Of a DNA stretch of 44,113 nt, positions 22,087 to 27,853 are shown piece after piece. Source of the DNA: Candidatus Binatus sp. (lineage in GTDB: Bacteria > Desulfobacterota > Binatia > Binatales > Binataceae); NCBI RefSeq assembly GCF_030646925.1, contig NZ_JAUSKL010000065.1:1-44113 (forward strand). Direction: 5' to 3'. The translations under genes and the position numbers were made by a program. Within the stretch, counting starts at the first letter, position 1; each line of letters begins with the position of its first letter. The notes beneath the pieces are model-generated. The model worked only from the letters and a program-made list of their open reading frames with translations, was not told the DNA's origin and did no database searches.

Positions 22087-23931
22087 CTATCGCGAAGCTG
22101 AGCCCACTTGAAGCGGCTCCCGGCTGCTTGCTCCCGCTAGCTCCAACTTCGACAATCTTTGCTCGAGCCGTTCGAGTTCGGCGGCTTGCAGTTCATTTTT
22201 GACGATCTCATCGCGCAGGTCTCGCGTCTGCTGCTGCAACTGTTCAGTCTGTCGTTCGTTCTCTTTGGTTTGCTTCTGTAGTTCGTTCAGCAGCATCGAC
22301 GTGAGCATCGAGTAGCGCACCGACTCGACTTTGCCGTCGTCGTTGCGAACTATCAACTCTGGATAAACTCGCTCGACCTCCTCCGCGACCAAGCCATACT
22401 GCTTCGTCTTCTGCTCGTCGTTCTTATAGATGAATGTCACTGGCCGCAACTTCATCAGGCGGTTGGTCGAGGTTCCCATGTCAGAGATATCGTTCTTGTA
22501 TCGGGCCGATGAGACTACAACTCCTAGCCGCCCGCTGCCATTGACTACGACGTCGCTCCCCGTCACGCCGCTGCCGGTGATGCCTGCTATGTAAGTCGCG
22601 GTTTGTTTGCCCGGCGTGCCGATGCGGATAGTGCCCGCGTCGGCCGCGACACCGAGATTGCCGATATCGATGTTGTTGTTGCCGGTAGTGAGATTGAATC
22701 CAGCCTGGTAGCCGAGAGCGGCGTTGTATTGGCCGGTCGTGTTCTTGTACAGGGCTTGAAGGCCGTCCGCCGTGTTGTAGTTGCCAGTGCTGTTGCTGTA
22801 CAGAGCTTGCGCTCCACTCGCGGTGTTCTGGATGCCGGTGGTATTGCTGATTAGAGCCTTCGAACCGCCTGCCGTATTGTTGCGCCCGGTGGTGTTGTTT
22901 ACGAGCGCGGACCACCCGGCGGCAGTATTTTCAGAGCCCGTGCTGTCGAAGTAGAGCGCATTCTCCCCGGTCGCAGTGTTGCTGGAGCCGGTCGTGTTGA
23001 AGCGCAGTGCCTGCGCGCCGGTGGCGGTATTGTAGAGGCCTGTTGTGTTCTTAGACAGGGCGCTTACACCGACCGCGGTGTTCAAGTACCCACTAGTGTT
23101 ACTGCGCAGGGCAGAATCGCCGACCGCAACGTCATGAAAGCCCGTGAGGTTGCTGGAGAGGGAGTCCACGCCATTGGCGGTATTGCCGTAGCCGGTTGTA
23201 TTGCTCTCGAGGGCCGAGAACCCACTCGCGGTATTGTGGTGACCCGTGGTATTGGCGAGGAGCGCGTCCGCGCCCGTAGCGGTATTGTCGTAACCTGTTC
23301 CATTATGTGAGAGAGAATACGCGCCGATAGCGCTGTTGGCGTAGCCCGTTGTGTTGCTCGATAAGGCATTCGCTCCAGCCGCGGTATTGTACAAGCCGCT
23401 AGTGTTGGAGAAGAGCGCTTTATGCCCGTCGGCGGTATTAAAGAAACCGGTCGAGTTGCTGAAGAGAGCATTCACCCCGCTAGCGGTGTTGTACCAGCCG
23501 GTGGTGTTGCTCGACAGAGCTTGCGCACCCGTCGCGGTATTTTGATAACCCGAGGTGTTGAGCTCCAAGGAGTAATATCCGGTTGCGGTATTGTAGTTGC
23601 CGTTGTTGGAAAAGAGCGCCCTGTCGCCATCGGCGGTATTATTGCTGCCAGTGGTGTTGCTATAGAGAGCGTTAACTCCTGTCGCAGTGTTGTAGCTGCC
23701 ACTCGTGTTGTTCAGAAGAGCCTGCGCGCCAATCGCCGTATTCTCCCAACCCAAGTTGCTGCTGGTTAGAGTCAGGTACCCAAGCCCGGTATTGTAAGAG
23801 CCGGTGTTGCCTGTCAGCGCTCCAGTCCCGAGGCTGGTGTTGGTTTGGGCCGACGCGGTAGTCACGCTCGACAGTGCGAAGATTAGAATCGCCGTGATCG
23901 AAAGGAGAAGATTTGTTGCCGTCTTTTTCAT
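22087..23931 (-). CDS. Exported fibre-like protein with 17-residue repeats and a C-terminal S74 intramolecular chaperone domain
   Basis: A 614-residue protein: signal peptide (1-29, ending TASAQ), about 22 repeats of 17 residues with the theme NTAxGxxALxSNTTG (45-433), a linker, and a C-terminal endosialidase-chaperone (peptidase S74) domain starting at about Ser475 (SARYKNDI) with VTFIYKNDEQKTKQYGLVAEEVERVYPEL. A coiled-coil tail follows (about 545-600). In the family the S74 domain trimerises a beta-helical fibre and then cuts itself off at the Ser. Repeats resemble YadA-type head repeats. Start at 23931 (MKKTATNLLL). Likely a secreted or surface trimeric fibre; no phage genes are near. Confidence 0.88.
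   Translation of the reverse strand: MKKTATNLLLSITAILIFALSSVTTASAQTNTSLGTGALTGNTGSYNTGLGYLTLTSSNLGWENTAIGAQALLNNTSGSYNTATGVNALYSNTTGSNNTADGDRALFSNNGNYNTATGYYSLELNTSGYQNTATGAQALSSNTTGWYNTASGVNALFSNSTGFFNTADGHKALFSNTSGLYNTAAGANALSSNTTGYANSAIGAYSLSHNGTGYDNTATGADALLANTTGHHNTASGFSALESNTTGYGNTANGVDSLSSNLTGFHDVAVGDSALRSNTSGYLNTAVGVSALSKNTTGLYNTATGAQALRFNTTGSSNTATGENALYFDSTGSENTAAGWSALVNNTTGRNNTAGGSKALISNTTGIQNTASGAQALYSNSTGNYNTADGLQALYKNTTGQYNAALGYQAGFNLTTGNNNIDIGNLGVAADAGTIRIGTPGKQTATYIAGITGSGVTGSDVVVNGSGRLGVVVSSARYKNDISDMGTSTNRLMKLRPVTFIYKNDEQKTKQYGLVAEEVERVYPELIVRNDDGKVESVRYSMLTSMLLNELQKQTKENERQTEQLQQQTRDLRDEIVKNELQAAELERLEQRLSKLELAGASSREPLQVGSASR
22633..23799 (-). repeat. About 22 tandem 51-bp repeats inside the fibre gene
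   Basis: The coding repeats are 51 bp (17 codons), one unit being 16 codons (SNNTADGDRALFSNNG). Asn-Thr, Gly and Ala-Leu positions are kept while the rest varies, so the copies have diverged at DNA level. The repeat number could vary between strains. Confidence 0.88.
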
Positions 23932-24123
23932 GGACCCACCGTCGCGAAGGTTGTTGCAACCGTGCAATCGAGAGTTGCAGCCCACACTGCGACCGTACAG
24001 ACGTTATGCGGGAACTCTCCTGCCGGATGATGACGCAGGGGTTCATCGCGGCGCAACCGCAAAAGAGGAAGCCCGCAGCGTTCTTTTGAGAACCAACCTT
24101 ATCGGCGATTCGGAAAAGAAGAC

Positions 24124-25084: not shown

Positions 25085-27853
25085 CTACTTCTTACTCACT
25101 TTACTCACTTTGACCGGATTGGTCGCCACCTGCCCCGGTATCGGCTGCCCCGGATGGCTCCCGAACCAGAAAATATAGTCCCGAATTGCTTTGATTTGTT
25201 CGTCCTGCTTGCCGCCCAGGATGTCGTCGGGACCGCCCGGATAGAACGACGGCATCTTGGTGCCCGGCTGGATCGACGGCGGATTCGCTATCCATGCCAG
25301 AATCCACTCAGGATTAAGCCGCTGATGAGCCAGCGCGAGGTCGGGCGCCCATCCTGACTCGGGACCTTCGGGCTTCTTGTCGCCCTGCTGATGGCAGCTA
25401 AAGCAGTTGAAGTAATCCTTCGACATCAGCTTGGCGCCCGCCTGCAGTTCGACCGGCGCGATCAGGTTCGTATTGATAAACATGTACGGCACGTCCACGT
25501 CCGACAGCCCGGTGAAATAATTCACGATCGTATCGTCTTCCGGATTCGACAGATGAAAGGTCGGCATCCGAATCTTCAGCCACGGCCTAATAGAGGTCGG
25601 ACCTTGCAGGAACGTGAACAGCCATTGCGGCTGCACCTTGGCGCCTTCGCCGTTCAGAATCGGCGGCGCGAAATTGATCTGATCCTCGGTGTAGAAACGC
25701 CGCACGTAGCCGCCGCGATTCTCGACGATATGGCATCCGACGCAATTGTAGTAATTGACCGACCGGCGGCCCGCGACGATTTGGGTCTGATGCTGCGAGC
25801 CGGGCATCCGGTAGCGCTCCTGCACCGTGCCTGAGGTAAGTCCCGCCAGGAAGACGCGCAGGTTCTTGATGTCAACATCGTCGAAGTCGAAATTCGGCAT
25901 CAACTGCTCGACGTCCTTGGTCGCATAGATGCGCGGTGACTGCAGCTTGTGGAACGTCCACGCATCCCAAGTCTCGGGAATCTCGGTCTCGTTGCCGAAG
26001 AACAATTCGTCGAGATGCTTCGATCCGAACGTCGTCAGTTCGACGCCGATGCGCGATTCCTTGTCCATCCCTTCGATTTCGTGGCAGCCAAAGCATCCAT
26101 ACTTGCGCACCAGCGCTTCGCCCTTCTTGACCTGATCGGGCGCCTTGAGCGCAGTCTCGACGCCGGGATCTTCTTTCTTCTCGCCATGCGTCATCACGAA
26201 CGCAGTCAGCGCCGCAGCTTCATGATCGGTCAAGCGTAGCGAGGGCATCGCAGTATGCGGTGCGAAGTCGCGCGGATTACGCAGCCAGAAATAGACCCAC
26301 GAGGCCGAAGTTTTCTCGGCGATCTTGCTGAGATCAGGGGCGAAGTCCTTGGTCGTGCGCGTTTGATCCGGCTTGAAGTTCGCCGCATCGCCGACCGGGG
26401 TGCCGTACTGGTCCGGCTCGATCGAGTGACAGCCCTTGCATCCAACTGACTCGAAGAGACCTTTGCCTTCTTCGATCAATCCCGGATTTTTCACGTCGGC
26501 AGCGAGCGTCGGCGGCGCGACGTGCGCCGCCGTCCAACCCTTCGACTGCTTCGACGAGCTATCCATCAGGTAGGCGGCGACCGCGGTCGCCTCTTCGCGC
26601 GAGAACATGAAATTCGGCATCCGCGTGTGCGGCCGGAACACGTGCGGATCGGTGATCCAGCGGACAGTCCACGACGGATCGAGCTTGGCCGACGCGAGCT
26701 TCAGGTAAGGCCCGATCTTCGGCATGTCCTCGTAGCCCGCGACCAGATGGCATCCCGCGCATCCCATCTGCTGGAACATCCGCTCGCCTTCGACCCAGTT
26801 GATCGCGATTGGCTTGCCGTCCGCGTCGTGCAGCGAGCCGACATCGAGGTGGCACTTGATACACCGCGACTCCATCTTGTCGCCCTTCAGCATCGGCGAA
26901 TCCCAATCGTGATCTTCGCCGTGCGCGAGGCGCACCGAACTCACCGCCGGGCCCTGGCCATCGTGACAAGGTGTGCATCCGAGCTTGTCGGGCGGATGCT
27001 TCAGCATGATCTGATCGAAGTTAGTATGCGTGCGAAATGGCTGCGGCGCAGTCTCGAAGCCTTTCTTGTCGATGCCCATGTGACAGCTTTGGCATCGATC
27101 TACTCGCGCGATTGCCTGGTCGAACGCGTTGCGATCGAAATCGTCGATCGACGTCTGCTGAATTTTCGGAATTTTCGGATAGCGGAACAGCACAACCCCG
27201 CGCACGGCGATCGGGATCATGTAGGTGTCGGCCTTCTCGATAAAGTCGTCGCGCTTGGCCGTCAGCTTTTTCATCTGTTCGGTCAGCGTTTCGGTCTTCG
27301 AGTTGATTGCCTCGATCTCATCCTTGACCGCTTGCACGTCGGCCTTGGCCTTGTCGGAGACGAGATTCTCCTTGGCGAGGTCCGCGTTCAGCCGATCGAT
27401 CTCCTGCTTGTATGGAGTCGCATCCTCTTTCGCCTGCAGCGCGTGGTTGTAATCGTACCATCGCTCGGTGAGGAACGACTTGGTGAAGCGAACCGCCTGA
27501 TCCTTGTCGTCGGCGACAACATTAAGATCGCGGAGCTTCGCGTGCAGATCGTCGAGCTTGGCGGCGGTGGCGCCCGAGTGCAATTCCTTTTGCGCCTCGG
27601 CCAACTCCTTGGACGCTTTCTGATATTCGGGATCCGCGTTGAGGCGCTTCTGCTCGTCGTCCGCATCCTTCATGTACTTGTCGTACGCGAGGCGGTCCCA
27701 CTTGACCTGGTATTCCTTCCACGGACGACGCGAGATGTTGTCGTCCCAGATCGACCAGACCGCGGTCACCAGCAACAGCGCGACCATCAGCACGAACAGC
27801 GCGCTGTATGATTTTCCTTCCTCGGTGGGATCAAGCCCCGGTCTGCCCGCCAT
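25085..27853 (-). CDS. Membrane-anchored octaheme c-type cytochrome
   Basis: A 922-residue protein with one N-terminal membrane helix (about 16-36), a long helical/coiled-coil region (about 55-210), then eight CxxCH heme sites at 254, 293, 331, 365, 472, 587, 704 and 817. Distal Met ligands are likely in the RMP, AMP and LMP motifs after several sites (e.g. 411-413, 535-537, 651-653, 763-765), typical of cytochrome c domains in tandem; the first three sites are closer together and lack such motifs. It is the fifth gene of the b6-like operon and probably takes electrons from the Rieske/b core in the periplasm. The closest named relatives are multiheme subunits of bc complexes in anaerobes and nitrifiers. 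Confidence 0.9.
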   Translation of the reverse strand: MAGRPGLDPTEEGKSYSALFVLMVALLLVTAVWSIWDDNISRRPWKEYQVKWDRLAYDKYMKDADDEQKRLNADPEYQKASKELAEAQKELHSGATAAKLDDLHAKLRDLNVVADDKDQAVRFTKSFLTERWYDYNHALQAKEDATPYKQEIDRLNADLAKENLVSDKAKADVQAVKDEIEAINSKTETLTEQMKKLTAKRDDFIEKADTYMIPIAVRGVVLFRYPKIPKIQQTSIDDFDRNAFDQAIARVDRCQSCHMGIDKKGFETAPQPFRTHTNFDQIMLKHPPDKLGCTPCHDGQGPAVSSVRLAHGEDHDWDSPMLKGDKMESRCIKCHLDVGSLHDADGKPIAINWVEGERMFQQMGCAGCHLVAGYEDMPKIGPYLKLASAKLDPSWTVRWITDPHVFRPHTRMPNFMFSREEATAVAAYLMDSSSKQSKGWTAAHVAPPTLAADVKNPGLIEEGKGLFESVGCKGCHSIEPDQYGTPVGDAANFKPDQTRTTKDFAPDLSKIAEKTSASWVYFWLRNPRDFAPHTAMPSLRLTDHEAAALTAFVMTHGEKKEDPGVETALKAPDQVKKGEALVRKYGCFGCHEIEGMDKESRIGVELTTFGSKHLDELFFGNETEIPETWDAWTFHKLQSPRIYATKDVEQLMPNFDFDDVDIKNLRVFLAGLTSGTVQERYRMPGSQHQTQIVAGRRSVNYYNCVGCHIVENRGGYVRRFYTEDQINFAPPILNGEGAKVQPQWLFTFLQGPTSIRPWLKIRMPTFHLSNPEDDTIVNYFTGLSDVDVPYMFINTNLIAPVELQAGAKLMSKDYFNCFSCHQQGDKKPEGPESGWAPDLALAHQRLNPEWILAWIANPPSIQPGTKMPSFYPGGPDDILGGKQDEQIKAIRDYIFWFGSHPGQPIPGQVATNPVKVSKVSKK

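Follow-up and report, generated by a model that had tools for sequence, protein, structure and literature searches.

Fibres with a C-terminal S74 chaperone have been described outside phages. In Bdellovibrio bacteriovorus, the mosaic adhesive trimer (MAT) proteins form trimeric, beta-rich fibres with 13 S74 members, for which cleavage at the S74 serine and location on the predator surface are reported (PMC10769870). MyRF is cut between P586 and S587, and its dyad S587/K592 corresponds to S911/K916 of endosialidase (PMC8326128). S74 fibres have also been reported in extracellular contractile injection systems (PMC12923769), and two papers on Liberibacter mention a single 'tail fiber domain-containing protein' in a set of outer-membrane proteins identified by prediction, as well as a prophage type with a Peptidase_S74 gene. 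Here, we describe a gene for an S74 repeat fibre in a 44,113-nucleotide contig of Candidatus Binatus sp. (NZ_JAUSKL010000065.1, assembly GCF_030646925.1; the whole stretch is referred to as the window). Its product is probably a domesticated phage-type tail fibre that would be exported through Sec, trimerised by its S74 domain and self-cleaving, and the genome keeps nine stand-alone versions of such a fibre.

The open reading frame named in a preliminary description of the window is real, and its strand, which that description did not give, is the minus strand. An in-frame GTG lies upstream of the ATG start, at position 23985. The predicted signal peptide reads MKKTATNLLLSITAILIFALSSVTTASA|Q, the bar marking the predicted cut; it bears out the earlier call and, like all signal peptides in this study, was called by inspection and a hydrophobicity rule, not by SignalP. 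Peptidase_S74 (Pfam PF13884) matched with an E-value of 7.9e-11 and 42.5 bits against a curated cut-off of 22, and no NCBIfam profile came near its cut-off (best 17.3 bits vs 142). The initial view of an S74 fibre that is encoded in the chromosome, starts with a signal peptide and has its catalytic residues intact is supported.

In a 62-sequence alignment S474, R477 and K479 are invariant and S475 is nearly so. The motif SSARYK of the window protein has its arginine at +3 and its lysine at +5 from Ser474, the same spacing as S587, R590 and K592 of MyRF. Because of this S-x-x-R-x-K spacing, and because position 474 is invariant while 475 varies, Ser474 is the likely catalytic serine, and the cut is expected between Val473 and Ser474. 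The preliminary description rightly saw the serine in place, but the one that it quoted (SARYKNDI) is residue 475, and the cleavage that it placed before Ser475 is off by one. Across 99 chromosomal S74 domains (after removal of 9 duplicates) the serine is present in all, the +1 residue is Ser in 97 and Ala in two, and Lys occupies +5 in 98. All 59 viral domains (after removal of 15 duplicates and one gapped row) have both the serine and the +5 lysine; 57 of them carry Asp at +1, and the other two Ser. Eight extra domains from a wider phylum search, counted apart, carry Asp (6/8) or Ser (2/8) at +1. Roseobacter phage CRP-1 (L239) has the motif SSRRYK, yet its domain lies on the viral side of the tree described below, so SS alone is not diagnostic. 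L215 is, like L239, a phage-side S74 domain with SS, not SD, at the catalytic motif.

Structures were predicted for single chains only. The model of the C-terminal 291 residues reached a pLDDT of 78.7 with the 62 aligned sequences, with low confidence at residues ~428-455 between repeats and chaperone. Its best Foldseek match was the MyRF ICA (7dc3; E 9.5e-4, Z 7.1), and it also matched the endosialidase chaperones 3gw6 (E 0.098, Z 7.0) and 3gud (E 0.51, Z 6.7) and the T5 tail fibre 4uw8 (Z 5.9). The predicted fold is that of an S74 intramolecular chaperone, at modest scores and in a monomer model; unrelated solenoids reach Z 8.1 on the repeat part of the same model. The full-length model is a single-chain solenoid. 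Its Foldseek matches, which include tailspike, leucine-rich repeat and lyase solenoids, had query TM values of at most 0.17 among the 50 matches listed and were not read as kinship. No YadA structure appeared among the listed matches, to which we attach no weight.

The preliminary description counted about 22 repeats of 17 residues, which agrees with the 22 strict units found here, spaced by 17 residues in 19 of 21 cases and by 16 in two. G5 and L9 are invariant across the units, N1, T2, A3, N12 and G15 are kept in at least 91% of them, and the models show mostly one short strand per unit. The weakest unit falls short of the best shuffle (13.8 vs a maximum of 13.86 in 200 shuffles, scored with a 17-column profile that was trained on the same 22 units, which makes the control partly circular). 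DNA identity between units averages 0.56, with 0.78 for the best pair and at most 0.69 for neighbouring units, and the tandem repeat search TRF returned zero arrays on the gene DNA. The low mean identity (56%) and the lack of a TRF array give no sign of recent slippage, and judged by this divergence the repeats are old. The nine paralogues in the genome have 9 to 22 strict units. A variable repeat number had been suggested for strains; it does vary between related species (22 vs 18 strict units), which is the level that our comparison covers, and it is plausible that repeat number sets fibre length.

Phage likeness, which the preliminary description noted for the chaperone fold, extends to the repeats. 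With the whole protein as tblastn query, 459 of 50,697 phage records matched, five of them covering at least 80% of the query at one place; the chaperone region alone matched 335 records, two over at least 80% of the query. Gp37 of Roseobacter phage CRP-1 (37% identity over 88% of the protein, 15 repeat motifs) and gp48 of Pelagibacter phage HTVC112P (35% over 86%, 19 repeat motifs) align across repeats, cap and S74 domain up to residue 557-558, and the best phage relatives with the whole layout are annotated as tail structural protein, tail fibre or adhesion protein.

Chromosomal and viral relatives were compared in two sets, and all counts describe these pattern-selected samples, not S74 proteins at large. 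The chromosomal set comprises 79 loci (best 80 of 101 relatives; patterns taken from the nine paralogues) and the viral set likewise 79 loci (best 80 of 488 IMG/VR relatives; patterns from the repeat and cap region). The signal-peptide rule was passed by 71 of 88 testable chromosomal open reading frames, including the window gene and the phylum-level loci, vs two of 52 viral ones; it was inapplicable to 19 further chromosomal and 9 further viral frames. A first subsampled tree of the S74 domain (28/47 viral rows, 40/98 chromosomal rows, the window protein and L146, with L215 left out) placed the viral rows on one side with support 100/100. In a second (26/47 viral and 38/98 chromosomal rows, the latter 39 with the window protein, plus six domains from five named phages, L146 and L215), all chromosomal rows and L146 fell on one side with support 92/98. 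The six phylum-level rows were left out of both subsampled trees, and one of the chromosomal rows (L105) is the window gene. On a quick tree of all 154 rows (90 columns, phylum-level rows in), the viral label changes five times, vs 41.8 in shuffles, and three of these five changes are forced by starred branches. The separation of chromosomal from viral S74 sequences is thus strong, if imperfect. The fibre of L146, an 8.5-kb IMG/VR contig, satisfies the signal-peptide rule and falls among the chromosomal S74 domains; the contig is possibly cellular DNA within a viral collection.

Searching the genome with PF13884 gave nine S74 proteins, each on a contig of its own; they agree in layout, and every one carries SSARYK. 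An upstream leader of ~129 bp is common to three copies, those of the window, C102 and C114, at 73-82% DNA identity. It may be a promoter that the three have in common or the border of a duplicated segment. Neighbours were tested with Pfam for 14 window proteins and for two proteins chosen near each of the eight other copies, and with PHROGs for 17 window proteins, the fibre aside. Neither Pfam at all nine copies nor PHROGs in the window revealed virion genes among the tested neighbours. Where neighbours had a Pfam match, which was the case at eight of the nine copies, their genes belong to metabolism, transport or the envelope; the two tested at the ninth (C124) had none.

Within the genus Binatus, S74 proteins occur in two of seven genomes, with nine here and ten in G003. 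G003 appears to be palsa_1115, and G001 Binatus soli UBA7539. Both neighbours of the window gene are present in five other genus genomes. The spacer between them measures 2225 bp here and 1957 bp in G003, and it is short in G001, G002, G005 and G006 (16, 109, 114 and 15 bp). This is presence or absence of a single gene at a fixed site, for which gain and loss both fit. The syntenic orthologue in G003 has 509 residues and 18 strict units, with an ambiguous assembly base at its end, and its first repeats align in register with those of the window protein, the odd 16-residue unit included. A mis-assembled phage contig was rejected as a source of the window gene, given that G003 has a syntenic copy and that the site is short in four congeners. 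Judged by flanking genes, three of the nine sites are clearly shared with G003 (window, C102, C89), a fourth weakly (C63, one gene at 61%), and the others were unmatched among the ten G003 stretches examined, which do not include every G003 fragment. In five congeners, the two flanks of C66 matched different contigs in every case, and none had both flanks of C87. Site sharing, the filled or short site and the shared leader make the S74 fibre genes look like single-gene units that turn over between sites. The dN/dS ratio of the C-terminal region is 0.14 against the syntenic orthologue (130 codons; dS 1.2, near saturation) and 0.17 against the paralogue C114 (131 codons), a sign of purifying selection on this region. 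G003 also has two S74 fibre genes in tandem (L232 / G003:C101), suggesting local duplication.

Judged by its sequence, the signal peptide would send the fibre protein through Sec. By homology with the S74 proteins of endosialidase, MyRF and Bdellovibrio, we infer that outside the inner membrane three chains would associate via the C-terminal S74 domain and the coiled coil, with the S74 domain as template of the trimer. The Ser474-Lys479 dyad would then cut before Ser474 and release the chaperone, which would leave the 22 repeats and the cap as the mature fibre. The fibre would most likely serve in adhesion or recognition, outside the cell or on its surface, and its reach may depend on repeat number.

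Several observations weigh against this model. S74 proteins are missing from five of the seven genus genomes, of which one is only 85% complete, and their function is therefore dispensable. In the sole family member found in Binatus soli (L088/L109, a 393-residue open reading frame), the S74 core is missing in frame, while signal peptide, repeats and coiled coil are retained; either the chaperone is not indispensable there or this copy is decaying. The +1 residue of the window protein is Ser, as opposed to the Asp of nearly all viral domains. Neither an anchor nor an outer-membrane route was identified in the window sequence, in which only two residues separate the predicted signal cut from the first repeat. 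Confidence in the full-length single-chain model is low (pLDDT 68.9, with residues 438-503 below 50), and a contractile-tail cluster elsewhere in the genome means that phage-type particles are not absent from the lineage.

Some of these points recur in an alternative in which the exported trimer is left uncleaved, or is a periplasmic or released soluble scaffold and not a surface adhesin. The sequence has no visible anchor, lipobox cysteine or outer-membrane route, Asp at +1 is replaced by Ser, and one congener copy lacks the S74 core, all of which this alternative accommodates. A dyad as well kept as in the chromosomal domains (Ser in 99/99, Lys in 98/99) would be needless in an inactive scaffold, and we regard this explanation as unlikely.

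It is highly unlikely that the scattered genes supply S74 fibres to a phage-derived particle, be it a prophage remnant, a tailocin or a contractile injection system. The whole window protein matches PHROGs tail and virion families as well as phage tail fibres, and injection systems with S74 fibres have been reported (PMC12923769). The preliminary description, which had seen no phage genes nearby, holds for the tested neighbours; elsewhere the genome has a terminase-type match (C22) and a P2-like contractile-tail cluster (G000:C78:59001-79000; L244 6502-17790) with sheath, tube, GpU, GpD, injector (gpV-type), gp25, J and I, which is a prophage, tailocin or injection system. While these genes speak for a particle, the cluster has its own gp53-like tail fibre gene, and neither C78 nor C22 carries any of the nine S74 genes. 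A particle also fits poorly with the signal peptide, with the metabolic, transport or envelope neighbours at eight of nine copies and unmatched ones at the ninth, with a site that one relative has occupied and four others have at only 15-114 bp, and with the supported branch that parts chromosomal from viral domains in the two subsampled trees. A prophage remnant at the window site itself was rejected.

A solenoid with a Thr/Asn ladder could also serve another use, such as ice binding or as a phage-receptor decoy. The regular NTA/NTTG ladder of the repeats, the antifreeze solenoids among the structural matches (3p4g, Z 13.5; 1l1i, Z 4.8) and the origin of several carriers from palsa, bog and fen genomes would suit such a use, whereas repeats yield middling Z-scores without kinship, marine phages bear similar repeats, and peat genomes are so numerous in public collections that carrier origin is biased; we give this idea a very slight probability. 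A type Vc trimeric autotransporter adhesin with a passenger of YadA-head-like repeats, although the A-x-G-x-x-A spacing of YadA head repeats is similar to that of the window repeats, is scarcely credible and was rejected, as neither YadA_head (PF05658) nor YadA_anchor (PF03895) matched in the genome at E<=1 (both exceeded the cut-off in a control genome) and the C terminus consists of S74 and a helix.

Relatives of the window fibre were found under ten phylum labels (Acidobacteriota, Pseudomonadota, Armatimonadota, Verrucomicrobiota, Planctomycetota, Thermodesulfobacteriota, Ignavibacteriota, Chlorobiota, Nitrospirota and Binatota); an eleventh, Myxococcota, is palsa_1115 itself. Most relatives are contigs of metagenome-assembled genomes and some phylum labels rest on one record, so that single cases may be due to contamination. 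S74 was patchy in the wider phylum search (9 of 148 genomes, the window genome included). Among the literature matches listed, subscription papers and supplements aside, titles and abstract openings held no description of this multi-phylum repeat family outside phages and Bdellovibrio. In the chromosome of Betaproteobacteria bacterium GR16-43 (L056), eight S74 repeat-fibre open reading frames lie within ~14 kb and share a DIVLTP..GGGVS-like segment after the signal peptide.

It is possible, and we propose it tentatively, that these proteins form a class of fibres that cells make themselves and that trimerise unaided, spread over many phylum labels and each derived from a phage tail fibre by the gain of a Sec signal and little else, typically with the motif SSxR[FY]K and with no virion, autotransporter barrel or separate MAT-type N-terminal domain. 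Such genes would turn over as single-gene units at intergenic sites and multiply to nine or ten copies that differ in length, so that, if the proposal is true, every lineage would have a set of recognition fibres of its own. A phage tail fibre turned exported cell appendage would then be widespread in soil and water bacteria, beyond the predatory Bdellovibrio, which raises the question of how a Sec-exported trimer without an apparent anchor reaches or stays outside a cell with two membranes.

Table 1. Positions of the fibre gene and its predicted parts in the window
Feature	Residues	Positions	Strand	Basis
Whole coding sequence, 614 aa, ATG start		22087..23931	-	ORF analysis
Signal peptide, predicted cut ASA28|Q29	1-28	23848..23931	-	inspection + hydrophobicity rule
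22 repeats of 17 residues (twice 16), consensus NTAxGxxALxSNTTGxx	31-402	22726..23841	-	
Cap region: degenerate last repeats + conserved cap	403-473	22513..22725	-	conserved columns, nine paralogues
Predicted catalytic Ser; predicted self-cleavage between Val473 and Ser474	474	22510..22512	-	
Lys479, predicted partner in Ser-Lys dyad	479	22495..22497	-	alignments + MyRF spacing
Peptidase_S74 Pfam match PF13884	474-526	22354..22512	-	profile + fold matches
C-terminal long helix / presumed coiled coil	541-603	22123..22311	-	structure models
Upstream leader, ~129 bp		23932..24060	-	73-82% DNA identity, window/C102/C114 copies

Elsewhere in the window, positions 25085-27853 on the minus strand encode an unusually large protein of 922 residues with several cytochrome c stretches (Pfam), part of a respiratory cluster; the adjoining open reading frames look, by eye, like cytochrome b.

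The closest precedent for the window protein are the MAT fibres of Bdellovibrio bacteriovorus, which are likewise chromosomal, have a signal peptide and an S74 tip and occur as many paralogues, and the window family probably works like them. The MAT S74 subgroup has the motif SDxxxK, whereas the window protein has SSARYK and its chromosomal relatives SS (97/99) or SA (2/99); the MAT proteins also have a conserved beta-rich domain of ~130 residues right after the signal peptide, which may set them apart from the window protein, whose repeats start at residue 31 with no separate domain before them. The tail fibres of phages CRP-1 and HTVC112P share the layout of repeats and S74, but their N termini lack a signal peptide (by eye), their neighbours are tail genes, and viral domains mostly have SD (CRP-1 has SS) and lie across a supported branch from the chromosomal ones; endosialidase NF and the T5 L-shaped fibre are further phage S74 fibres that belong in this comparison. 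The fibres of extracellular contractile injection systems are bacterial and S74-bearing too but part of a contractile particle, unlike the nine S74 copies described here, none of which adjoins contractile-tail genes in the regions examined. The MyRF ICA has the same spacing of S, R at +3 and K at +5 and differs in belonging to a membrane-bound eukaryotic transcription factor. With trimeric autotransporters of the YadA type, the window fibre presumably shares the working principle of an exported, repetitive, trimeric adhesin, and its repeats may be structurally akin to YadA_head.
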